The translations under genes were made by a program, and so were the position numbers. 36,352 nucleotides of DNA from Pseudomonadota bacterium (lineage in GTDB: Bacteria; Pseudomonadota; Gammaproteobacteria; Steroidobacterales; Steroidobacteraceae): the NCBI GenBank assembly GCA_026398785.1, contig JAPLSF010000275.1, forward strand, positions 1 to 36,352. Reading direction: 5' to 3'. The stretch's first letter is position 1, and the number at the start of each line of letters is the position of its first letter. The notes beneath the pieces were generated by a model. It made no database searches, had not been told where the DNA came from, and saw nothing but the letters and a program-made list of their open reading frames with translations. Below, piece by piece: positions 1 through 35,076 of the stretch.

Positions 1-1
1 C

Positions 2-415
2 TCGCTGCCGCTGCTCGGGGCCATTGCCGGTGACGCGAGCCCGCTGGGCTGGCTCGATTACGCGGGTGCCGCGCTCTGCCTGGTCGGCCTGTACTTCGAG
101 ACCGTCGGCGACTGGCAACTCACCCGCTTCAAGGCCAATCCGGCCAACGCGGGACAGGTCATGGACCAGGGGCTGTGGGGCCTCACGCGCCATCCCAATT
201 ACTTTGGCGATTTCTGTGTCTGGTGGGGCTTCGGCCTCATTGCACTCGCGGCGGGTGCCTGGTGGTCACTGATCGGTCCTGCGCTGATGAGCGTGCTGCT
301 GCTGCGAGTCTCGGGCGTTACGCTGCTCGAGCGGGACATCGGCAAGCGGCGGCCCGGCTACGCCGAATACATCCGACGCACCAATGCCTTCTTTCCGGGG
401 CCCCGCCGTCCCTGA
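2..415 (+). CDS. DUF1295 / steroid 5-alpha-reductase-like membrane protein, C-terminal part
   Basis: The reading frame enters from the left edge and ends at TGA 413-415, so 137 C-terminal residues are visible and the start is missing. The visible part has hydrophobic segments (LDYAGAALCLVGLYFE near the start; WWGFGLIALAAGAWWSLIGPAL later). It also has the family signature RHPNYFGDF, followed by a C-terminal RRPGYAEYIRRTNAFFP. This arrangement is typical of DUF1295 proteins, relatives of steroid 5-alpha reductases and isoprenylcysteine methyltransferases, which are integral inner-membrane proteins. The substrate of bacterial members is mostly unknown, and I infer none here. The gene converges on the kinase gene on the other strand, with about 56 bp between them. 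Confidence 0.85.
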   Translation, partial: SLPLLGAIAGDASPLGWLDYAGAALCLVGLYFETVGDWQLTRFKANPANAGQVMDQGLWGLTRHPNYFGDFCVWWGFGLIALAAGAWWSLIGPALMSVLLLRVSGVTLLERDIGKRRPGYAEYIRRTNAFFPGPRRP

Positions 416-439
416 GGGATGCCCACCTCGGCCAGTCTC

Positions 440-471
440 TAACTGAGTCACCCCGTAACTGAGTCACCCCG
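440..471. repeat. Tandem pair of 16-bp direct repeats between convergent genes
   Basis: The 16-base unit TAACTGAGTCACCCCG occurs at 440-455 and again, identical and head to tail, at 456-471. It fills most of the gap between the DUF1295 gene and the kinase gene, and a third partial copy of the GTCACC core runs into the kinase stop codon. It does not form a clear terminator hairpin. Short repeats with GAGTCACC cores are, from memory, found scattered in some proteobacterial genomes, but I cannot test copy number here. Confidence 0.75.
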
Positions 472-3400
472 TCACCTGTCGGCGGAGGCGAGGTGGCGAT
501 CGAACCAGTCCAGGGCCTCCTTCTCGACCTGGAACCTCGGCAGGTTGCCGTGGCCCGCCTCGAACAGCACGTGTTTTTTCTGGTCCGCGGGCGAGCCCAG
601 CAGCTCGAGCAGCCGCTGCTGCGCGGCGGGCGGGGAATCGATGTCCCAGCGGCCATTCAGCATCAGCACCGGCTGGGTCACGCGCGGCAGGTAGTTGTAC
701 GTCTGTTCGCTGGCGGGCAAGCCACTGCGCAGACCCGACCCGCCGCTATAGAGTACGGCCGCACCGATGCGCTTCTCGACGGCGAGGAGCGGCAGCATCG
801 TATCCGCACCCATGCTGATGCCGAACCAGCCGAGCTTGCCGGCATCGATGTCGTCGCGCGTGGCCAGGTAATCGATCGTCCGCCCCAGTTCCTCGCGCCA
901 ATGCCGCTGTTGCAAGCGAAAGCGCTCGGCGTAGTTCAGCGACTGCATGCGCTCGGCCGGCCACTGGCGCTCGTAGGCGCCGTCGAAAGCCACCACGGCC
1001 AGCGCCCACCCCGACTTTGGCAGGAAGTCGAGCGGGACGCCGCCTGCCGCCGGATCAAATTCTGCGGTCGTGACCGGCGCGGTGAATTCGCCCGAATGCG
1101 GCATGTAGAAGATGAGGCCGAACGGCGAGCGGCGGTCCTTCGGCAGGAAGAGCTGCACGGCAAACGACGTGTTGTCGTAGCCGGTCGGCAGCGTGACCCG
1201 CTCGACCGTCCACGCGGGATTCGACGAATCGGCTGTCCCGACGCGCGGCGTGAACGGTGCCGGCCTGTAGTCGAGTTGTTGCGCGAGAACCGCGTACGCG
1301 TCAGCGCCGACAGGCTTCATGGCCGCATAGTCGACGGCCTGCGCAAGGACGGGCCGACGCAGGTCTTCGTTCGCAGGTCCAGCCTGCGCCGGCTGCATGC
1401 AGCGGAATCCGTTGACGGCGGACCGCTCGGCCGGCGGCGCCTCTTCGGGCTGCAGGTACAGGTACCGCGGCTCGTCGAAGGCGCCGCCCGCGACCCACCG
1501 GCCCAGCGACCCCTGTGTCCACAGCCATTCACGCGCGTTGCCGGCCATGTCGTAGGTGCCGTACGGCCCGAGGCTGCCGAACCGGCCGACGGGCGCAAGT
1601 TCCCGACCAGCAAAATTGCTGCCGTGCACGATGGCCGATGAGACCGATTCCCAGTACTCGGCGATCGATCCGGCGGCGCGGTACCAGTGATACGCCGTCG
1701 GCAACTCCTTGCCGCGGAATCGACAGTACGCCGCCGCCTCGTACCAGCTGACTCCGGTCACGGGGTGGTCGGCCCTGCCGTCCGGATAGGTGCCCGCGCG
1801 CCACGTCGAGGGCCCTTGTCGGCCAGTCAGGTCGACGAACGCAGCGACAGCCGTCCGCAGGTCGCCGCCGCCGTCGAACGGCAGCTCCCGCCAATGCCTG
1901 GCCTCGGTGTATCCGCCGGCGTCGACGAACTCCTTGAAATCCCGGTTGCGGACCTCGAAGCGATCGATGAAGAACGCGGGCACCTTGACGGGATCGTCAC
2001 CGATGCCGGGGATCAGCGCCGGAACTGCCGGCACCAGCACCATGTCGTCCGGCGAAGCCGCCGCGTCGGCGAGCGGAATCGTGAGGTCGACACCCTGCAC
2101 GAGCTGCCGAATGTCGGCATCCGGGGCGTTGCCCAGCTGCAGCCCGGGATTGCGCAGCGCCAGCAGCGCGGTGTCGTGGCCTTCCTTCTCGATGCGCCAG
2201 AGCCCGACACCGATCGGCACGGCGACGTCCTGCAGCGGCGTCGCGCCGATGAACCGCCAGTCCTGCTCCCCGCTGGCGTATGGCCGGTAGAAAACCCGCG
2301 CCCCGTCCGGCGCGGTGTCGAGTGTGACCTTCGCGGAGAATGACGGTTCGAGCTGGCGCAGCACCGGATCGCGTGGCGTGACGCGCTCGATCTCGCGGGC
2401 AACATCGAATGCTGCTGCATAGTCGTCCGCGGCGATCAGCGCCTGCAGTCGCGGCAGCGCGTCCTCGCGCGCCCAGCGCTCCTGGTTGCGCTGCTGCAGG
2501 GTCCAGGTGAGCAGCGCCGCCATTACGATCAGCGCCGCGAGACCGGCGACCCACAACTGGCGGGTCTTCAGCCTCCCCGGTATGAATCGCGCTCTTCCCT
2601 CGGCAAACGACCGCAACGCAGCGGCGAAGCTGGCTGCGTCCGGATAGCGCTGGCCCGGATCGGGCTGCAGCGCCTTTGTCACAGCGTCATGCAATGCACC
2701 CAGCAAGGGTGTGGTTTCACTGGTCGACGGTCGCATGGGCTGTGCGGGCCGAACACCGGTCAGCAGCTCGTGCAGCACGACCCCGAGCGAGTAGATGTCG
2801 CTGCGGGCGTCGATGGCTTCGCCGTGCAGCAATTCCGGGCTCGCGTACTCCGGTGTGAGGGCGAGGCCGTAGGCCCGCGTCAGCAGCGCCGAGTCCGTCT
2901 CCGGCTGCAGCAGCCGGGCGACGCCGAAATCCAGCAGTCGCACCTCGCCTTGCGCAGTCACCAGGATGTTCGAGGGCTTGAGGTCGCGGTGGATCACCTT
3001 CCGCCCGTGCGCATAGGCCACCACATCCAGCACCTGCAGGAACAATCGGATGCGCGCCGTCCTGTCGAGCCCGCGCGCGTCGCACCACGCCACCAGGGGC
3101 TCGCCCTGCACGTACTCCATCGCTATGTACGGAACGCCGCCGGTGTCCACGCCGGCGTCATACAGGCGAGCAATCCGTGGATACTCCAGCGTTGCGAGGA
3201 TGTTGCGTTCGAGCGCGAAGCGCGCCGTCATCTCCACCGGACGACCTTGCAGGTGCGGGATCTTGAGTGCCACCTGGCGCTCGAACGCGCCGTCGGTGCG
3301 GCATGCGAGCCAGACGTCCGCCATGCCGCCGGACCCCAGCAGCCGCAACAGTTCGTAGGCGCCGAGTCGCTCGCCCGCATGGCGGCCGGCCGCTCCTACT

Positions 3401-3615
3401 TTCCCGGCGTCGCCTGCCTCGAGGCGCGGCGGGCGATCCAGCGGCCCGCCGGCTCCGTCGTCCTCGTCGAGCAACGCATCACGCAGCGTCCGCAGCAGCG
3501 GCTGGTCCCCGTCCGACAAGGTGTCGAGCCAGGTCCGCCGCTGCTCCGGCGTCAACGCCAGGGCCTCGTCCAGCAACTCCCCGAGGCGCGCCATCTCCCG
3601 GTTCGTCAGGCTCAC
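472..3615 (-). CDS. Ser/Thr protein kinase - FGE-sulfatase - alpha/beta hydrolase multidomain membrane protein
   Basis: This 1047-aa protein has several modules. Residues 1-80 form an alpha-helical leader. The kinase domain spans about 86-340, with glycine-rich loop GSGGMADV (94-101), catalytic Lys in VALK (118), HRDLKPSN (209-216) and DFG (229-231). The set of key residues suggests an active Hanks-type kinase. One membrane segment follows at about 354-372. A PEGA-like stretch lies near 428-485 and a formylglycine-generating-enzyme (SUMF1-like) fold from about 523 to 735 (DMAGNAREW, NGFRC). A C-terminal alpha/beta hydrolase has nucleophile motif GISMG, an acid in WDIDSP and a His in AGHGNLP. 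The topology predicts a cytoplasmic kinase and a periplasmic FGE/hydrolase. The start is GTG at 3615, 12 bp after the sigma gene stop; ATG at 3594 is an alternative. Cotranscription with the sigma factor gene implies a signalling pair. Substrates are unknown. Confidence 0.9.
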   Translation of the reverse strand: MSLTNREMARLGELLDEALALTPEQRRTWLDTLSDGDQPLLRTLRDALLDEDDGAGGPLDRPPRLEAGDAGKVGAAGRHAGERLGAYELLRLLGSGGMADVWLACRTDGAFERQVALKIPHLQGRPVEMTARFALERNILATLEYPRIARLYDAGVDTGGVPYIAMEYVQGEPLVAWCDARGLDRTARIRLFLQVLDVVAYAHGRKVIHRDLKPSNILVTAQGEVRLLDFGVARLLQPETDSALLTRAYGLALTPEYASPELLHGEAIDARSDIYSLGVVLHELLTGVRPAQPMRPSTSETTPLLGALHDAVTKALQPDPGQRYPDAASFAAALRSFAEGRARFIPGRLKTRQLWVAGLAALIVMAALLTWTLQQRNQERWAREDALPRLQALIAADDYAAAFDVAREIERVTPRDPVLRQLEPSFSAKVTLDTAPDGARVFYRPYASGEQDWRFIGATPLQDVAVPIGVGLWRIEKEGHDTALLALRNPGLQLGNAPDADIRQLVQGVDLTIPLADAAASPDDMVLVPAVPALIPGIGDDPVKVPAFFIDRFEVRNRDFKEFVDAGGYTEARHWRELPFDGGGDLRTAVAAFVDLTGRQGPSTWRAGTYPDGRADHPVTGVSWYEAAAYCRFRGKELPTAYHWYRAAGSIAEYWESVSSAIVHGSNFAGRELAPVGRFGSLGPYGTYDMAGNAREWLWTQGSLGRWVAGGAFDEPRYLYLQPEEAPPAERSAVNGFRCMQPAQAGPANEDLRRPVLAQAVDYAAMKPVGADAYAVLAQQLDYRPAPFTPRVGTADSSNPAWTVERVTLPTGYDNTSFAVQLFLPKDRRSPFGLIFYMPHSGEFTAPVTTAEFDPAAGGVPLDFLPKSGWALAVVAFDGAYERQWPAERMQSLNYAERFRLQQRHWREELGRTIDYLATRDDIDAGKLGWFGISMGADTMLPLLAVEKRIGAAVLYSGGSGLRSGLPASEQTYNYLPRVTQPVLMLNGRWDIDSPPAAQQRLLELLGSPADQKKHVLFEAGHGNLPRFQVEKEALDWFDRHLASADR

Positions 3616-3627
3616 GCGACGAGGGCC

Positions 3628-4179
3628 TTATTCCATCGCCGCCCGCAGCATCAGCCTGGCCTTCAGCCACAGCCGCTGCACGGTGCGTTCGGCGACATCG
3701 AGCGTCTCGGCGATTTCCTGCTCGGTGTAGCCGCCGAAGTAGCGCATCTGAACCACCTCGGCGAGGCGCGGATCGACCTGTGCCAGCGACTCGAGCGCTT
3801 CGTGCACGCGCAGGATGTCGTCCTCGCCCGCCGGTAGCCGTTCCGCCACGTCCGTCGACAGGGTCAGGGGTCGCCGTCCGGCACCGCGCTTGTCCGCGGC
3901 GCGTTCGCGGGCGCTGGAAACGATCACCGAGCGCATCACCTGGGACGCAAACGCGAAAAACGCGCGCCGGTCTTCTGCGCGCAATTCGCCTCCACGCACG
4001 TAGCAGAGGTACGACTCGTGCACCAGGCCGCGCGTGTCCAGCAGGGTGCTCCGCCCGCCGTCGCGCAGCCGCGCCCGGGCCAGTTTCTCCAGGAACGGAT
4101 AGGCGGCGGCAAACAGCGCTTCGCGGGCGCCCGCGTCGCCGGCCTGGACCTTGTGGAGCAACTGGGTGATCTCCGTCAT
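3628..4179 (-). CDS. ECF-type RNA polymerase sigma factor (TIGR02999-like)
   Basis: This 183-aa protein has a sigma region 2 (about 45-85, with a helix around EDRRAFFAFASQVMRSVI) and a sigma region 4 helix-turn-helix near the C terminus (YTEQEIAETLDVAERTVQR). It belongs to the extracytoplasmic-function sigma factors that commonly sit beside Ser/Thr kinase genes, without an obvious anti-sigma factor. The kinase gene starts 12 bp downstream on the same strand, which fits control of the sigma factor by phosphorylation (inference). I chose ATG 4179 because similarity starts at MTEITQLLHKVQAGD; the frame stays open upstream to 4284, but that part does not look like the family. The upstream region contains the 14-bp direct repeats at 4271-4303. 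Confidence 0.9.
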   Translation of the reverse strand: MTEITQLLHKVQAGDAGAREALFAAAYPFLEKLARARLRDGGRSTLLDTRGLVHESYLCYVRGGELRAEDRRAFFAFASQVMRSVIVSSARERAADKRGAGRRPLTLSTDVAERLPAGEDDILRVHEALESLAQVDPRLAEVVQMRYFGGYTEQEIAETLDVAERTVQRLWLKARLMLRAAME

Positions 4180-4270
4180 CAGCGCCTCTGCGTGCTTCCT
4201 GCGCGCGTGCGCGAATTCTAACCCAGTCGAATGTCGGGTTTTGCCCCCGGATTGCGTCCATTCAGGTAAC

Positions 4271-4303
4271 AGAAACCGACTCAAGCAAGAGAAACCGACT
4301 CAA
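4271..4303. repeat. Pair of 14-bp direct repeats in a divergent promoter region
   Basis: AGAAACCGACTCAA occurs at 4271-4284 and 4290-4303, with copy starts 19 bp apart, close to two helical turns. The pair lies between the sigma factor gene (start 4179, minus) and the secreted beta-propeller gene (start 4346, plus). The position would suit an operator or activator site acting on either gene. A dispersed repeat is equally possible. Confidence 0.65.
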
Positions 4304-4345
4304 CTCGCCGCGTCAGTGGCGAACAAACTTAGGAGCTGCGCCACC

Positions 4346-5479
4346 ATGTTCCGCATCGCACTAAAGTCTACAGCCGTGCTCACAGGGTTCGTGCTCGCGA
4401 GCTCCGGCGTTCTCCACGCGGATTCCTTCGGGCCATCGAGCGTCACCAAACACACGTGCACCAGACCATCCGTGACCACCTACGCCACGGGCCTGACGAA
4501 CCCGCGCGGCCTCGCGTTCGGTCCGGACGGCAACCTGTATGTGGCCGAGGCCGGCACCGGCGGCCGGAAGACGCCGGCAGACATCGATCCCCGTTGCCCG
4601 GTCAACGTCAACATCTACAGCCCCTACACGGCCGGCTACAGCGGTCGTGTCACCCGTGTGCGTGCCAATGGCACGACGCAGACTGTCGCCGCCAACCTGC
4701 CGAGTATGACCGACGCCTTTGGCGGCAGCTACGGCCCCACCGACGTCGCGTTCATCGGGGACAAGCTGTACGTCCTGATCGAGATGGGCGGCTGCTCGCA
4801 CGCGTTGCCCGACGACCTGCCCGCAATTCTGCGGGTCAACCGCGACGGGTCGACGACCAAGGTCGCCAACCTCAACGCCTGGCACGCGGCGAACCCGCCC
4901 CACTTCATCAAGGACACCGATCCGACGACCACCGACCAGGAACCGGGTGGCGTGTTCCATTCGATGATCGCGGTCGGCAAGTACCTCTACGTGGTCGAGA
5001 CCAACCGCGGCTTCCTGCTGCGTGTCGATCCGTCGAGCGGCACGATCGAGCAGCTGTACGACATGTCGTTCGACAACCAGGAACACAACCCGATCGTGAT
5101 GACCCGACGCGGCAACGAATTCCAGGTCGGCACGTTCGGCGAGGATGGGGGGAAGGCCGAACTCGCCGTGTTCGACAAGTACTTCTCAGGTTATTCCCTG
5201 CCATTCCGGTCGCGCAACCCGATCGTCGGCCTGGCGTGGCACGGCAACCGTCTGTACGGCGTCGAGATCTTCCCCTACGACAATCAGTGGACGACCGATA
5301 ACGCCAACCTCGTCAGGTTCGATCCCAGGACCGGCGAGCGCAAGGTGGTGCTGGCCGGATTCGCCAGCCTCCCGAACGGGCTCGTGACGGGTCCCGACGG
5401 TGCGTTGTACACGTCGAACTGGGGGATTTCGTATAAGAAGGGCGGCGGCGACGGCGGAATTCTGCGAATCGTTCCTTGA
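4346..5479 (+). CDS. Secreted ScyD/ScyE-family beta-propeller protein
   Basis: This 377-aa protein has an N-terminal signal peptide (MFRIALKSTAVLTGFVLASS, likely cleaved after LHA) and then a six-bladed-propeller-like domain. Repeats of the NHL/SMP-30 kind are visible: GLTNPRGLAFGPDGNLYVAE, GPTDVAFIGDKLYVL and LPNGLVTGPDGALYTSNWG. This matches the ScyD/ScyE family, named after a cyanobacterial scytonemin cluster but widespread in proteins of unknown function; no scytonemin genes are present here. The start at 4346 is supported by AGGAG at 4331-4335 with a 10-base spacer and by the signal peptide. The gene is divergent from the sigma factor gene and could be one of its targets (inference). Confidence 0.85.
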   Translation: MFRIALKSTAVLTGFVLASSGVLHADSFGPSSVTKHTCTRPSVTTYATGLTNPRGLAFGPDGNLYVAEAGTGGRKTPADIDPRCPVNVNIYSPYTAGYSGRVTRVRANGTTQTVAANLPSMTDAFGGSYGPTDVAFIGDKLYVLIEMGGCSHALPDDLPAILRVNRDGSTTKVANLNAWHAANPPHFIKDTDPTTTDQEPGGVFHSMIAVGKYLYVVETNRGFLLRVDPSSGTIEQLYDMSFDNQEHNPIVMTRRGNEFQVGTFGEDGGKAELAVFDKYFSGYSLPFRSRNPIVGLAWHGNRLYGVEIFPYDNQWTTDNANLVRFDPRTGERKVVLAGFASLPNGLVTGPDGALYTSNWGISYKKGGGDGGILRIVP

Positions 5480-5515
5480 AAGAGACTGGCGCCGAGCGGC
5501 GCGGGGCACCTGCCT

Positions 5516-5530
5516 CGCGCCGCAGGCGCG
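5516..5530. other. GC-rich hairpin downstream of the beta-propeller gene
   Basis: CGCGCC GCA GGCGCG forms a perfect 6-bp stem with a 3-base loop, 37 bp past the stop codon at 5479. No run of T follows, so intrinsic terminator activity is uncertain. Confidence 0.3.
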
Positions 5531-5594
5531 AACCCTCCGCGCGAATGAAAGTGAGTGCGCCCTCGTCGCCCTGGACTCGTCCAAGCGCGGTCTC

Positions 5595-5759
5595 AAAATC
5601 GTCACCCGCTGTGGTCGCATCTGCTTCGGCAATCACAAAATCAACTTGAGCACCGTGTTCGCCGGGCAAACCGTCCGGGTCAAGCAGATCGCCGACCAGG
5701 CCTGGCTGGTCGGCTTCATGCACTACGATCTTGGCTTTTTCGACAACGAATGTTGCCGG
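5595..5759 (+). pseudogene. IS481-type (DDE integrase core) transposase, C-terminal remnant
   Basis: About 55 codons read KIVTRCGRICFGNHKINLS, then TVFAGQ, WLVGFMHYDLGFFD and NECCR. This is the pattern of the extreme C-terminal region of integrase-core transposases of the IS481 type, recalled as CGRI..-KIN.STVFAGQ-..WLVSFM.YDLG. There is no DDE catalytic core upstream: the similarity starts abruptly near 5595 and stops at about 5759, before the usual C-terminal NPFG-like tail. The fragment has no start codon or ribosome site of its own and is dead. It abuts the tRNA-Phe fragment starting at 5761, so the two mark one recombination junction. Confidence 0.7.
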
Positions 5760-5760
5760 G

Positions 5761-5810
5761 TGGTGGCCGGGGACGGAATCGAACCGTCGACACGCGGATT
5801 TTCAGTCCCC
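5761..5810 (-). pseudogene. tRNA-Phe 3' half (anticodon arm to CCA end)
   Basis: Read on the minus strand, the segment gives an anticodon arm with loop CTGAAAA (anticodon GAA, Phe) at 5799-5805. The anticodon stem has one G-G mismatch. A perfect 5-bp T arm (GACGG/CCGTC, loop TTCGATT) lies at 5772-5788, followed by an acceptor strand CCCGGCC (5765-5771), discriminator A and an encoded CCA (5761-5763). The 5' half is not a tRNA: although GGCCGGG occurs at 5837-5843, 26 bases separate it from the anticodon stem and no D arm folds. The sequence upstream is the coding end of the monooxygenase gene. This is therefore a displaced or truncated tRNA end, typical of att sites and integration scars. Confidence 0.8.
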
Positions 5811-7334
5811 GTGCTTGGCAACCGCGCTTTCCTGCGCCCGGCCGAACCGATACTGGGCAGCATCGACCTTGCGTGTCTGCAGCCAGTACCGCCAGGTCGA
5901 GTACGGCCAGATCGTGAAGTTGCGGCCGTCGGCCTGCTGGTACCAGCTGCGGCACCCCGAACTCCAGACGGTGTTCTTCAAGGCGTGCTGGATGCGCTCG
6001 TTGAACTGCGCCTGCGCAGCCGGTTGCACATCGAGGTAATCCGCGCCGTGTGCGCGCAGCGTGCGCAGGCAATCGATGACGTACCGCACCTGTGCCTCGA
6101 TCATGAAGATGATCGAGTTGTGCCCGAGCGCGGTGTTCGGGCCAACGAGCTGATGCAGGTTCGGGTAACCCGTGACCGAAATCCCGTAGTACGCCTCGGC
6201 CCCCGCTTGCCAGTCACGGGCAAGCTCATGACCGGGCATGCCCGTGACGGGGAAGCCCTGCATGTAGATGCGCGGATCGACGACGAATCCAGTGCCGAGA
6301 ATGATGCAGTCGACCGGACGTTCGACACCGTCCGCAGTCACGATCGAGTGCTCGCGGATTTCGCGGATGTCCTCGGTCACGAGTTCGACGTTCGGCCGGC
6401 GGAACATCGGGTACCACTCGTTCGAGATCAGCACCCGCTTGCAGCCGATCGTGTAGTCGGGGGTCAGCTTGCGTGCGAGCGTCTCGTCACCCACGGCGCG
6501 ACGGATGTTCCACCGCGCGAGTCGCTGCAGCCCGCGTGCCAGGGCGGGATGAAAGATCGGCCAGACCCGCGACTCGTTGGACCAGTACAGGCGTGCGCGG
6601 TGCAGGCGCCGCACAAGGTCAAACCGTCCGAAGCGCTTCTTCGCGGACTCACTGTAGGTGCGGACATCGCGCGGGATCACCCACGCGGGCGTGCGCTGAA
6701 AGACGTGCAGCTGGGTCGCTGCCGGCGCGATGCGCGGGCAATACTGGATCGCGCTGCCACCGGTGCCGATCGAAGCGACGCGTTTACCGTCGAGGCTGTA
6801 ACCGTGGTCCCACTGCGCCGAATGGAACACCTTGCCGGCGAAGCGCTCCAGCCCTGGCAGCAGCGGCAGGTTCGGCACGTGGAGCGGACCGGTCGCCAGT
6901 ACGACGTGCCGTGCACGCAATTCGAGGCCTGACGCCATGATCACGCGCCAGCGAGCCGTCCCCAGGTCGAAGTGGAGTCCGGTCACGTGCTGGCTGAACC
7001 GGATGTACGGACGCACGCCGAAGCGCTCCGTGATGTCCAGTATGTACTGCTGGATTTCCCGCCAGCCCGCGTAGCGCTGGCTCCAGTCGGGCTTGCCCGC
7101 GAACGAGTACGAATAGAGGTGCGACTGCACGTCGCACTCGGCGCCGGGATAGGAGTTGTCGCGCCACGTGCCGCCGACTTCGGCGCCCTTCTCGAGGATC
7201 GCGAAGCGCCGCTCACCTTGTGCCAGCAGCCGGATGGCCATGCACAGGCCACCGAAACCGGCGCCGACGATTGCGACTTCCACTTCTTCCGGTGCAGCCG
7301 ACCGGAGGGCGGGGGACTGCGGCAGTGCGTTCAT
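5802..7334 (-). CDS. Flavin-containing / Baeyer-Villiger-type monooxygenase
   Basis: This 510-aa protein carries an FAD-binding motif GAGFGG near residue 25, a second dinucleotide (NADPH) motif IGTGGSAIQ, and between them the Baeyer-Villiger signature FAGKVFHSAQWDH. These enzymes use NADPH and O2 to oxygenate ketones or heteroatoms in the cytoplasm; the substrate cannot be deduced. I chose ATG 7334 because the family-like sequence begins a few residues later. The frame stays open to 7808, but that extension lies antisense to the neighbouring gene. The C terminus ends at TGA 5802-5804, which lies inside the anticodon loop of the tRNA-Phe fragment. The last residues (about 14) overlap tRNA-like or scar sequence and may be non-native. 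Confidence 0.92.
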   Translation of the reverse strand: MNALPQSPALRSAAPEEVEVAIVGAGFGGLCMAIRLLAQGERRFAILEKGAEVGGTWRDNSYPGAECDVQSHLYSYSFAGKPDWSQRYAGWREIQQYILDITERFGVRPYIRFSQHVTGLHFDLGTARWRVIMASGLELRARHVVLATGPLHVPNLPLLPGLERFAGKVFHSAQWDHGYSLDGKRVASIGTGGSAIQYCPRIAPAATQLHVFQRTPAWVIPRDVRTYSESAKKRFGRFDLVRRLHRARLYWSNESRVWPIFHPALARGLQRLARWNIRRAVGDETLARKLTPDYTIGCKRVLISNEWYPMFRRPNVELVTEDIREIREHSIVTADGVERPVDCIILGTGFVVDPRIYMQGFPVTGMPGHELARDWQAGAEAYYGISVTGYPNLHQLVGPNTALGHNSIIFMIEAQVRYVIDCLRTLRAHGADYLDVQPAAQAQFNERIQHALKNTVWSSGCRSWYQQADGRNFTIWPYSTWRYWLQTRKVDAAQYRFGRAQESAVAKHGD

Positions 7335-7497
7335 GGCGTCGCGCACTGTGCTGCGTTTCGATTCGCGCCGCAACCGGAAAGACCGCTGACGTCGTTGGAT
7401 TGCAGACGGCCGGGTGTCCGGTTGACAGCGCCGCCCCCCTCCCGTATTTGCTGTCTGGACCACTTCCAAACCAGACCAACCAGGAGTTCGTCGCATC

Positions 7498-7953: not shown

Positions 7954-8018
7954 TTCGTCGGCAGCTCAGTGCGCGGGCACCCGCACGGTCCCGCGCGTGA
8001 GCTGCGCGAAGAACGACG

Positions 8019-9398
8019 ATGCAAGACCTGACGCAAGGCCACGTTTCGCGCCAGGTGCTCACCATGGCCGCGCCGATAGCGATCGGCATGGTCTTCCAGA
8101 CCCTGTATTTCCTGATCGACCTGTATTTCGTCGGCCGGATCGGGGACGACGCGATCGCAGGAGTCAGCACCGCGGGCAACATCACGTTCGTAGTGATGGC
8201 GCTCACGCAGGTGCTTGCCGTCGGCACGGTCGCCCTCGTGTCCCACGCCGTGGGTCGTCGCGACCTCGCGGACGCCAACCTGGTCTTCAACCAGAGCCTC
8301 TCGCTGGCAGCGATCGTGGGCGTGACGGCGCTCGTGGCAGGCTATGCACTGACGCCGGTCTACATGCATTACATGGCGGCGGACGCAGCTACAGCCGCCG
8401 CAGGCAAGACTTACCTGGCCTGGTACCTGCCCGGACTCGCGCTGCAGTTCGCAATCGTCGGCATGGCGTCGGCGCTGCGCGGCACGGGCATCGTCAAGCC
8501 AACGATGCTGGTGCAGGTGCTCACAGTCGTGATCAACGCCGCGCTCGCGCCGATCCTGATCGGCGGCTGGGGCACGGGCCGGCCGCTCGGCGTCGCAGGC
8601 GCCGGTCTCGCGAGCACGCTCGCGATCGTCATTGGCGTGATCGTGCTGATGTTCTACTTCCACCGGCTCGAACACACGGTGGCGGTCAACCGCGCCCTGC
8701 TGCCCATGCAGTTCACGCAGGTGCGTCGCATCCTCAAGGTCGGCCTGCCCTCGGGCGCCGAGTTCCTGTTGATGTTCGTCAACATGGCGGTGATCTATGC
8801 AGTGATCGCCCGCTTCGGCTCCGAAGCGCAGGCCGGTTTCGGCATCGGCCAGCGCGTCATGCAATCGATGTTCCTGCCGGTGATGGCAGTCGCGTTCGCG
8901 GCCGCGCCGATTGCGGGCCAGAACTTCGGCGCGGGCAACCACGACCGGGTCCGTGCGACGTTCAAGTTCGCCGCACTCTTCGGCGGCAGCCTGATGCTGG
9001 TCATGAGCATCGCCTGCCACATCGCGCCGGCGAAACTGATCGCCGGCTTCACCAGCGAAGCATCCGTGATCGGCATCGGCGCGGAATTCCTCAAGTTCAT
9101 CTCGTGGAATTTTGTCGCGAGCGCACTGATCTTCACCTGCTCAGGCATGTTTCAGGCGCTGGGCAACACCGTGCCGGCCCTGCTGAGCGGCGCATCGCGG
9201 CTGTTGACGTTCGTCCTGCCGCTGCTCCTGATCTCACGCCTGCCGGGCTTCGAGCTGCATCACGTGTGGTGGCTGTCCGTGGGCACGACGACGCTACAGG
9301 CGCTGTTCAGCCTCTGGCTGCTGCGCCGCGAGTTCCGCCTGAGGCTGCACGCGGCGGGCGCTCAGCCAGACGTGATGCTCAGCACCGTCACGAAGTGA
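8019..9398 (+). CDS. MATE-family multidrug efflux transporter
   Basis: This 459-aa polytopic protein has about 12 membrane segments in two similar halves, the usual MATE length and layout. The N-terminal LTMAAPIAIGMVFQTLYFLI, then DLYFVGRIGDDAIAGVS, and the second-half counterpart LKVGLPSGAEFLLMFVN are typical of the family, which exports cationic drugs and metabolites using H+ or Na+ gradients. The substrate here is unknown. The start at 8019 follows a weak GAAGAA ribosome site. The 3' end overlaps the convergent trhA gene by 37 bp. Confidence 0.92.
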   Translation: MQDLTQGHVSRQVLTMAAPIAIGMVFQTLYFLIDLYFVGRIGDDAIAGVSTAGNITFVVMALTQVLAVGTVALVSHAVGRRDLADANLVFNQSLSLAAIVGVTALVAGYALTPVYMHYMAADAATAAAGKTYLAWYLPGLALQFAIVGMASALRGTGIVKPTMLVQVLTVVINAALAPILIGGWGTGRPLGVAGAGLASTLAIVIGVIVLMFYFHRLEHTVAVNRALLPMQFTQVRRILKVGLPSGAEFLLMFVNMAVIYAVIARFGSEAQAGFGIGQRVMQSMFLPVMAVAFAAAPIAGQNFGAGNHDRVRATFKFAALFGGSLMLVMSIACHIAPAKLIAGFTSEASVIGIGAEFLKFISWNFVASALIFTCSGMFQALGNTVPALLSGASRLLTFVLPLLLISRLPGFELHHVWWLSVGTTTLQALFSLWLLRREFRLRLHAAGAQPDVMLSTVTK

Positions 9399-33297: not shown

Positions 33298-35076
33298 ATG
33301 GCCGATATCTTCGTTTCCTACTCACGCACCGACAGGGCGCGTGTCGCGGCACTGGTGGCCGCGATCGAGGCGCAGGGCTGGACGGTCTGGTGGGATTCGG
33401 CGATCAACACGGGCCAGGAATTCGACAGCCAGATCGAGGGTGAGCTCGAGGCCGCCTGTGCTGCGATCGTCGTCTGGACGCAGACGTCGGTCGCTTCCCG
33501 CTGGGTGCGCGGTGAAGCACGCGAGGCCGCCGATCGCGGCATCCTGGTACCGGTGCGCTTCGAGGGGGCGAAGCTGCCGATGGACGTGCGCGCGATCCAC
33601 ACGACCGATCTCGATGACTGGAACGATGACCCGGCCAGCGTGCCATTCCAGGAATTGCTGCGCGCGCTCGGCTCGATGATCGCGCAGCAGCGCGCCGCCC
33701 GCAGCACATCGGTGGCGCCCGGGAATGCGGCCGCGACCCCAGTCGCCGCGGCGCCTACAGCGTCTCGCGTCGCGATCTGCGTGCTGCCATTCGTCAACAT
33801 GAGCGGCGACGCCGAGCAGGAATACTTCAGCGACGGCATCACCGAAGACGTGATCACGGACCTGAGCAAAGTCTCGGCGCTGTCGGTCGTCGCGCGCAAC
33901 ACCGTGTTCACGTTCAAGGGCAAGAACGTCGAGATCCCGCTGATCGCACGCCAACTGAAGGTCAGCCACGTGCTTGAAGGCAGCGTGCGCAAGGCGGGCC
34001 AGCGGGTCCGCATCAGCGCGCAGCTGATCGACGGCACGACCGGCAGCCACGTGTGGGCCGAGCGCTATGACCGCGACCTGAACGACATCTTCGCGCTGCA
34101 GGACGAAATTTCCGAAGCCATCGTCAACGCGCTCAAGCTCAGGTTGCTGCCAGAAGAGAAGAAGGCGATCGAGCAGCGCGGCACGACGAATCTCGAGGCC
34201 TACAACGTCTACCTGATGGCGCGGCAGTACAGCGTCACCGGCAATTACGGCAACGCACGCCGTTGCGAGGCAATCATCCGGCTGTGCCGCAGCGCCACCG
34301 AGATCGATCCCGATTACGCGGCAGCGTGGGCACTGATGGCCGTGTCACAGGCGGCCCTGCGATTTCACTTCAGCGAACCCGGGGATGGCGGACTCGCCGC
34401 GGCCGAACGAGCACTGTCGATCGATCCCAACCTGGCCGAGGCACACGCAGCCATCGCGCGCGTGCTGACGTCGAATTCGAAGTACGACGAAGCCCAGCGC
34501 GAAATTGCGACGGCCCTGCGACTCGACTCGGAGTCGTTCGAGGTCAATACGGCCGCCGCCCGCCTCAATTACGCGCAGGGCCGCTATGAAGACGCCACGC
34601 GCTATTACGAGAAGGCCGCGTCGCTCATGGAAAGCGACTTTTCCTCGGTGGCGATGTTGATCGCCTGCTACCGGTCACTCGGCAACCAGGAAGGATTGCG
34701 CCACGCCGCGCAGCGCACGCTGGCGCGGGCCGAGAAGATCGCGACACAGGAACCTGACAATGGCATGGCCATGGGGTACGTCGTGATGTCGCTGATCGCA
34801 CTCGGCCAGGGCGATCGCGCACGGGAACTCGCCAAGCGCGCGATGCTGCTCGATCCCGACAACCTCACCATGCGTTACAATTTCGCCTGCGGGTTCGTGG
34901 AACTGCAGGACACCGAAACCGCGCTGAACCTGCTCGGGGCAGTGCTCGAGAAGGACACGCTCGAGACCGTGAACTGGGCGAAGGTGGATCCCGACCTGGA
35001 TACCCTGCGCGATCATCCACGCTTCAAGGCGATGCTCGAGGGCGCGGATAAACGGCTGACGACGGCGGGCGGGTAG
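33298..35076 (+). CDS. TIR - TolB-like - TPR signalling protein
   Basis: This 592-aa protein has an N-terminal TIR domain (1-about 125; DIFVSYSRTDRARVAAL, GWTVWWDSAINTGQEF, SRWVRGEAREA with Glu73). Glu73 sits where TIR NADases carry the catalytic Glu. An Ala/Pro/Thr linker (135-157) leads to a TolB-like/FlgO-type domain (about 158-285; VLPFVNMSGDAEQEYFSDGI, SHVLEGSVRKAGQRVRISAQ), common in adenylate-cyclase-type TPR proteins. About seven TPR-like helical repeats fill 295-590. There is no signal peptide or clear membrane segment, so it appears cytoplasmic. The architecture suggests a sensor or scaffold whose TIR may hydrolyse NAD or make protein contacts. No effector gene is adjacent. Confidence 0.88.
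   Translation: MADIFVSYSRTDRARVAALVAAIEAQGWTVWWDSAINTGQEFDSQIEGELEAACAAIVVWTQTSVASRWVRGEAREAADRGILVPVRFEGAKLPMDVRAIHTTDLDDWNDDPASVPFQELLRALGSMIAQQRAARSTSVAPGNAAATPVAAAPTASRVAICVLPFVNMSGDAEQEYFSDGITEDVITDLSKVSALSVVARNTVFTFKGKNVEIPLIARQLKVSHVLEGSVRKAGQRVRISAQLIDGTTGSHVWAERYDRDLNDIFALQDEISEAIVNALKLRLLPEEKKAIEQRGTTNLEAYNVYLMARQYSVTGNYGNARRCEAIIRLCRSATEIDPDYAAAWALMAVSQAALRFHFSEPGDGGLAAAERALSIDPNLAEAHAAIARVLTSNSKYDEAQREIATALRLDSESFEVNTAAARLNYAQGRYEDATRYYEKAASLMESDFSSVAMLIACYRSLGNQEGLRHAAQRTLARAEKIATQEPDNGMAMGYVVMSLIALGQGDRARELAKRAMLLDPDNLTMRYNFACGFVELQDTETALNLLGAVLEKDTLETVNWAKVDPDLDTLRDHPRFKAMLEGADKRLTTAGG

Follow-up and report, generated by a model that had tools for sequence, protein, structure and literature searches.

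A tRNA-Phe 3' half at the end of a monooxygenase gene, and a clade of IS481 elements predicted to home to tRNA T arms

A standard genomic island at a tRNA gene is found 5' of the tRNA piece that it displaces. A flavin monooxygenase gene in a metagenome-assembled gammaproteobacterial genome ends within the 3' half of a tRNA-Phe, and by this rule the element would lie to the right of the tRNA half, on the side of the monooxygenase gene. Did the monooxygenase gene arrive with such an element and, if not, how did half of a tRNA come to stand at its end? The gene lies in the window, the whole stretch of 36,352 nucleotides analysed here, which is contig C287 of an assembly of 3.12 Mb in 409 contigs (85% complete, 3.3% contamination). 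The features of the locus are as follows.

1..415, plus strand: DUF1295 protein gene, 3' part (stop 413-415), a conserved neighbour across the interval
416..5801, no strand: segment separating the DUF1295 gene from the monooxygenase gene in this genome, missing in G004, with other genes in G007 and G002
468..5526, no strand: block of the kinase/FGE-sulfatase and NHL genes, 89% identical and collinear in G003 (contig C74), in a different neighbourhood
472-3615, minus strand: kinase/FGE-sulfatase protein gene, within the 468..5526 block
4151-5479, plus strand: NHL/ScyD-ScyE-type protein gene, within the 468..5526 block
5601..5759, plus strand: C-terminal remnant of an IS481-family transposase, truncated at both ends and pointing at the tRNA 3' end, assigned by identity to the putative T-arm-homing clade
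5761..5808, minus strand: tRNA-Phe 3' half (anticodon loop, anticodon-stem 3' strand, variable loop, T arm, acceptor 3' strand and CCA at 5761-5763)
5802..5808, minus strand: GGACTGA, 7 bp, the place of the join, common to the native monooxygenase end (same in G007) and to tRNA-Phe (G001/G003)
5802..7478, minus strand: FMO-like flavin monooxygenase gene (Pfam PF00743), syntenic in G007 and G002 and in part in G004; genus backbone; the true start is not fixed (roughly 7380-7480)

The minus strand from 5808 to 5761 reads GGACTGAAAATCCGCGTGTCGACGGTTCGATTCCGTCCCCGGCCACCA and, with its encoded CCA, is 90-96% identical over 46-49 nt to the intact tRNA-Phe found in genomes of the same genus (BLAST, E down to 2e-15); it carries CCCGGCC, and same-genus tRNA-Phe carries CCTGGCC. 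The D arm and the rest of the 5' half are missing, which bears out the earlier note's description of a tRNA-Phe 3' half without a D arm. No complete tRNA was found at the fragment by ARAGORN or by Rfam at its gathering score, the best Rfam match falling below threshold. A complete or unusual tRNA, including tRNA-Sec, was rejected on these searches, and a GGCCGGG 40 nt upstream, considered as a mimic 5' acceptor strand, is coding sequence that is also found in G004, which has no tRNA piece. The monooxygenase stop codon, TGA at 5804-5802, does fall within the anticodon loop, as had been noted before. The same TGA ends the gene in G007 without any tRNA, and thus the stop belongs to the monooxygenase gene itself.

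The T arm and acceptor strand are nearly intact and the predicted fold of this stretch reaches -42 kcal/mol over 95 nt, properties that would suit a working 3' element of the monooxygenase mRNA acting in stability, processing or termination. We consider such a role scarcely credible, given that the tRNA piece is absent from the monooxygenase orthologues of G007, G004, G002 and G006, that it has no D arm and that its best Rfam match is sub-threshold.

Comparison with relatives bears directly on the origin of the monooxygenase gene. G007 DNA is 89.7% identical from window position 5802 rightwards, through the monooxygenase and neighbouring genes; G002 is syntenic over the same genes at lower identity, and G008 shows synteny only for the more distal part of the right-hand genes. 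A MATE transporter gene at 8019-9398 (region 7958-9351 of the window) has no counterpart at this position in G007 or G002. On the left, the DUF1295 gene accompanies the monooxygenase gene across the site. The two lie directly beside one another in G004, where window position 5829 is joined to 416 and the monooxygenase lacks its last residues. They share one contig in G007, about 9 kb apart with no tRNA between, the interval being occupied by genes for a histidine kinase/response regulator protein, a DcaP-type porin, a beta-lactamase-fold protein and an amino acid permease. In G002 they are about 6.3 kb apart on the same contig, again with no tRNA between and with interval genes partly as in G007. 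The synteny of the monooxygenase and its linkage to DUF1295 in relatives indicate that both flanking genes are backbone.

An island in tRNA-Phe with its far end at 5809 would have the classic geometry, in which the element stands 5' of a displaced 3' fragment, as seen in G013 and others, and would make the monooxygenase cargo on the right. The synteny of the monooxygenase and right-hand genes in G007 and G002, together with the linkage of DUF1295 across the site in G004, G007 and G002, largely refutes this arrangement, which we regard as improbable. The earlier note had placed the element to the right and had it bring the monooxygenase; the genome-particular sequence proves to lie to the left (416-5801) and not to the right, and the sequence comparisons speak against import of the monooxygenase with an element. 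A displaced tRNA end need not imply an acquired gene on its 5' side, and tRNA fragments can mislead in this respect.

The position of the cut is shared with many other loci. A pattern search found tRNA-Phe or pieces of it in 49 of 60 relatives and, among the fetched loci, G001 (two), G007, G013, G039, G042, G044, G051, G056, G058 and others carry 3' pieces whose 5' flanks are unrelated. Going upstream from base 32, the similarity to tRNA-Phe ends after 0-4 bases at 14 other loci and after 3 in the window. Additionally, tyrosine recombinases adjoin tRNA-Phe in at least four relatives (G011, G012, G013 and G045), that of G013 being confirmed by Pfam. These repeated cuts and adjoining recombinases indicate that islands in this order use tRNA-Phe as a site and cut it in the anticodon loop, a subsite already known from the Islander survey (PMC4383910). 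The displaced end is of the kind left by tRNA-targeting elements, as proposed earlier, and the tRNA half is a recombination scar at a known type of site, not proof of a foreign monooxygenase. In G013 (L087, contig C255, 3157-19538), an intact tRNA-Phe with its adjoining tyrosine recombinase is followed by two further 3' pieces in tandem, 8-9 kb apart, as tandem small islands. In G042 (L189, contig C68, 686-1060), short tRNA-Phe 3' tails recur behind tRNA-Phe, and an IS481 copy lies 10 bp from one of these tails.

The window resembles the tRNA-embedded islands of the Islander survey (PMC4383910) in carrying the displaced 3' end of a tRNA that was cut in the anticodon loop. It differs from them in that its 5' side is a genus backbone gene, in that neither an integrase nor an intact tRNA-Phe was found and, if the locus is an insertion, in its reversed polarity. 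No intact tRNA-Phe is present among the 23 tRNAs listed in this 85%-complete, 409-contig assembly, and the half at 5761-5808 is the sole copy in the genome. Phage_integrase (Pfam) has no match among the window ORFs scanned, a scan that covered part of the ORFs, and a single weak match in the genome as a whole. The window also encodes, at 33298-35076, a TIR domain fused with TPR repeats.

Immediately past the CCA of the tRNA half lies the transposase remnant at 5601-5759, a feature that the earlier note does not mention. It is 55-69% identical to full-length members of one IS481 clade (tblastn), and matches to an outgroup of 43%-identical relatives are marginal (best 24%, E 0.009). One full-length relative scores 232.7 against the NF033577 cut-off of 224; in G001, a full-length relative of 402 aa lies beside tRNA-Arg. 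The remnant is too short for the clade tree and, by identity, is a member of this putative T-arm-homing clade. The transposase end and terminal inverted repeats that are present in relatives are missing here; the T-loop motif is present in the tRNA half, and with no right end on the remnant the window yields no spacing value.

What, then, do the complete elements do? Close copies are present in 14 of 200 family genomes, one each. At nine of these 14 loci an intact tRNA (Arg, Lys, Pro, Phe or Asn) begins 68-78 bp past the end of the aligned transposase, its 3' end facing the element in every case. The same layout, at 68-78 bp, recurs in two of three close copies elsewhere in the class and in four more copies on Rhizobium/Sinorhizobium plasmids. 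When copies were aligned at the right end of the element, the T-loop motif GGTTCGANTCC, called at 8 or more of 10 informative bases, was present in 28 of the 33 with an intact end, these 33 not all being independent, since two Methylocystis records represent a single site and the pSymB tRNA-Arg is apparently common to four records of Sinorhizobium type. The motif usually lies about 32-36 bp before the end (44 bp in a single copy; for L259 the distance was measured by eye, the script having picked a false end). Among 8,271 control windows, 1.2% reach 8/10 and 0.02% reach 9/10. Four of the five motif-negative copies are nevertheless in or at tRNA sequence, namely an intact tRNA-Pro (7/10), a tRNA-Arg 5' half, and L257 and L258; the fifth, L241, matches the motif poorly. 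A copy in L250 (G266, contig C24) directly abuts a tRNA-Arg 5' half, with a T-loop motif on the element's other side, as if the element lay inside the tRNA. In L257 and L258, both IMG/VR viral contigs, displaced tRNA-Arg and tRNA-Asn-like 3' ends are attached to IS481 with other sequence upstream, a layout that is also the window's.

The targets comprise many tRNAs, a Y-RNA cluster and plasmid sites without an RNA-family match. Eight plasmid sites of the last kind share gGTCG-N2-GGTTCGAaTCC and, behind it, tTcAAGGCG, a sequence for which no tRNA or Rfam family accounts and which is seen behind the T-loop motif in the plasmid targets L263, L265, L267, L268, L271 and L277. Because sites without an RNA-family match are also used, the motif alone appears to be enough. 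On a plasmid of Rhizobium sp. Pop5 (L270), the element lies at the tRNA-like T arm of a YrlA Y-RNA cluster flanked by RtcB and Ro60-type genes; Rfam recognises this cluster in element-free relatives (L283/L284). The Ti plasmids of Rhizobium tumorigenes provide a site with and without the element: pTi1078 has no element and keeps the motif, and pTi932 carries the 1.3-kb element. Comparison of L263 with pTi1078 gives an element of 1303 bp with one transposase gene, and a target duplication of 1-3 bp that is ambiguous. Relatives with transposases 42-45% identical have the T-loop motif in none of nine cases, and the C-terminal domain of the clade, about 65 aa long, can hardly be recognised in these non-homing relatives. 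The homing copies form one clade with support 100/100 for full-length copies, which also holds L241 and a few incomplete copies. Taken together, the position statistics, from which alone this target preference is drawn, make it very probable that this IS481 clade homes by the DNA of the variable loop and T arm, inserting about 34 bp beyond the first base of the T-loop motif, which is roughly 10 bp behind the CCA, and so oriented that the C-terminal end of the transposase faces the tRNA; that displaced tRNA halves, the tRNA-like part of YrlA and sites without an RNA-family match serve it as targets as well; and that the window holds a remnant of such an element.

The clade resembles the IS481 family (NF033577) in its single gene with HTH and rve DDE transposase domains and its length of 1.3 kb, and its ends match in part the TGT/ACA ends noted for that family (PMC11406308); it differs in lying at a fixed spacing past a tRNA T-loop motif, in one orientation. 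Among bacterial DNA transposons, those known to use tRNA genes need several proteins or guide RNAs to do so: Tn7-like elements and CASTs reach tRNA attachment sites through TnsD/TniQ or a guide RNA (PMC11406308). The clade shares with them DDE transposition beside tRNA genes. It lacks TnsA, TnsC and TniQ, however, and would serve many tRNA types with one transposase gene and one T-arm motif; being a single gene with HTH and rve domains, the element is not Tn7-like. Insertion beside tRNA genes also recalls the eukaryotic retrotransposons, the Ty elements and TRE5-A, that target Pol III genes (PMC5911963, PMC5391098), and the logic of targeting is comparable, although here the element is a bacterial DNA transposon. 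We found no description of IS481 homing to tRNA T arms in the literature searched, most subscription papers lying outside its coverage. If the preference is true, a one-protein transposon reads a motif common to nearly all tRNAs, and an insertion sequence able to find the T arm with one gene would constitute a compact site-specific system that places DNA behind tRNA genes and leaves the tRNA unbroken. The transposon clade matters more than the scar that led to it; its target preference is the result worth following, and the target rule is simple enough for a direct test.

The junction bears on how the tRNA half may have become joined to the monooxygenase gene. G007 has CACGGGGACTGA followed by CTGCCGCGTG, a gene end without a tRNA, and the window has CACGGGGACTGA followed by AAATCCGCGTG, the switch from monooxygenase to tRNA-Phe sequence occurring inside GGACTGA. 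A decayed tRNA piece at the G007 gene end was considered and rejected: the downstream similarity is background, 40% of random windows being as good. CCGCGTG recurs downstream of the G007 gene end, one base out of register. The piece 5527-5808 most likely derives from a tRNA-Phe locus carrying a T-arm-homing IS481 element, and would comprise the tRNA-Phe 3' half and the truncated transposon. In the sequence of events that we favour, at somewhat better than even chances, the transposon would have homed to the position just behind tRNA-Phe, and a break would then have split the locus within the anticodon loop, the place at which site-specific recombination cuts tRNA-Phe again and again in this order. 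Most likely, a tyrosine recombinase with a tRNA-Phe-type attachment site accepted the end of the monooxygenase gene as its secondary site and joined the severed piece to it through the common 7 bp, with the incoming DNA on the left. We infer that a recombinase made the join, which segment came with it, and that the transposon scrap was parked behind tRNA-Phe before the break. If the reading is right, the tRNA half does nothing for the monooxygenase gene today. Several observations weigh against it: no integrase among the window ORFs scanned, no clear attachment site at the far junction, a G004 locus that is no clean empty site, the loss of the remnant's right end, CCCGGCC in place of the CCTGGCC of same-genus tRNA-Phe, and no intact tRNA-Phe in the assembly.

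Use of a non-canonical site has precedent in SGI1, which integrates at a secondary site between sodB and purR when thdF is missing (PMC2297512). The proposed join is like it in employing a site that resembles the primary one and lies between or at gene ends; it differs in that the window's site is deduced from sequence and has one recognisable junction. Recombination at a secondary site would give exactly the junction found here, with incoming DNA on the left, and joining at a microhomology would appear identical. Random joins usually have overlaps shorter than 7 bp. Illegitimate end joining or rearrangement, in which a piece with the tRNA-Phe 3' half and the IS remnant was joined by 7-bp microhomology with no site-specific recombinase, is a possible though doubtful account. 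It fits a locus in which neither an integrase, among the window ORFs scanned, nor a second junction survives, in which the IS remnant is truncated on both sides, and in which the interval varies among relatives and contains a kinase-NHL block found elsewhere in G003, adjoining an IS481-type end. Against it stand the length of the overlap, unusual for a random join, and the position of the cut, no more than a few bases from where islands insert at tRNA-Phe; it is because of this coincidence with the recurrent cut site that we favour joining by a recombinase. An assembly chimera would be conceivable in a genome of 409 contigs and 3.3% contamination, with tRNA-Phe fragments that are repeats in relatives; we judge it very unlikely, as the 7 bp common at the join is below usual assembler k-mers and both flanks match the same genus.

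The left-hand segment, 416-5801, is made up of the kinase/FGE-sulfatase gene, the NHL-type gene, the IS remnant and the tRNA half, and the content of this interval differs among relatives, with G007, G002 and G008 carrying other genes there. We dropped G004 as a clean empty site in view of the other genes in G007 and G002; these genes, and the loss of the last monooxygenase codons from G004, make replacement as possible as simple insertion. At the far junction (about 416-470) there is no clear attachment site. Between the DUF1295 and kinase genes, at 440-470, ACGGGGTGACTCAGTT occurs twice as a direct repeat, like double-motif transposon ends; as a candidate for the other transposon end it was set aside, being seen solely in this window among the fetched loci. 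A composite IS481 transposon moving the kinase-NHL block was likewise rejected: the IS481-type end in G003 and the remnant here lie on opposite sides of the block, with no paired ends. In that G003 locus (L198, contig C74), an IS481-type terminal repeat at about 4840-4900 lies some 30 bp from the end of the kinase gene.
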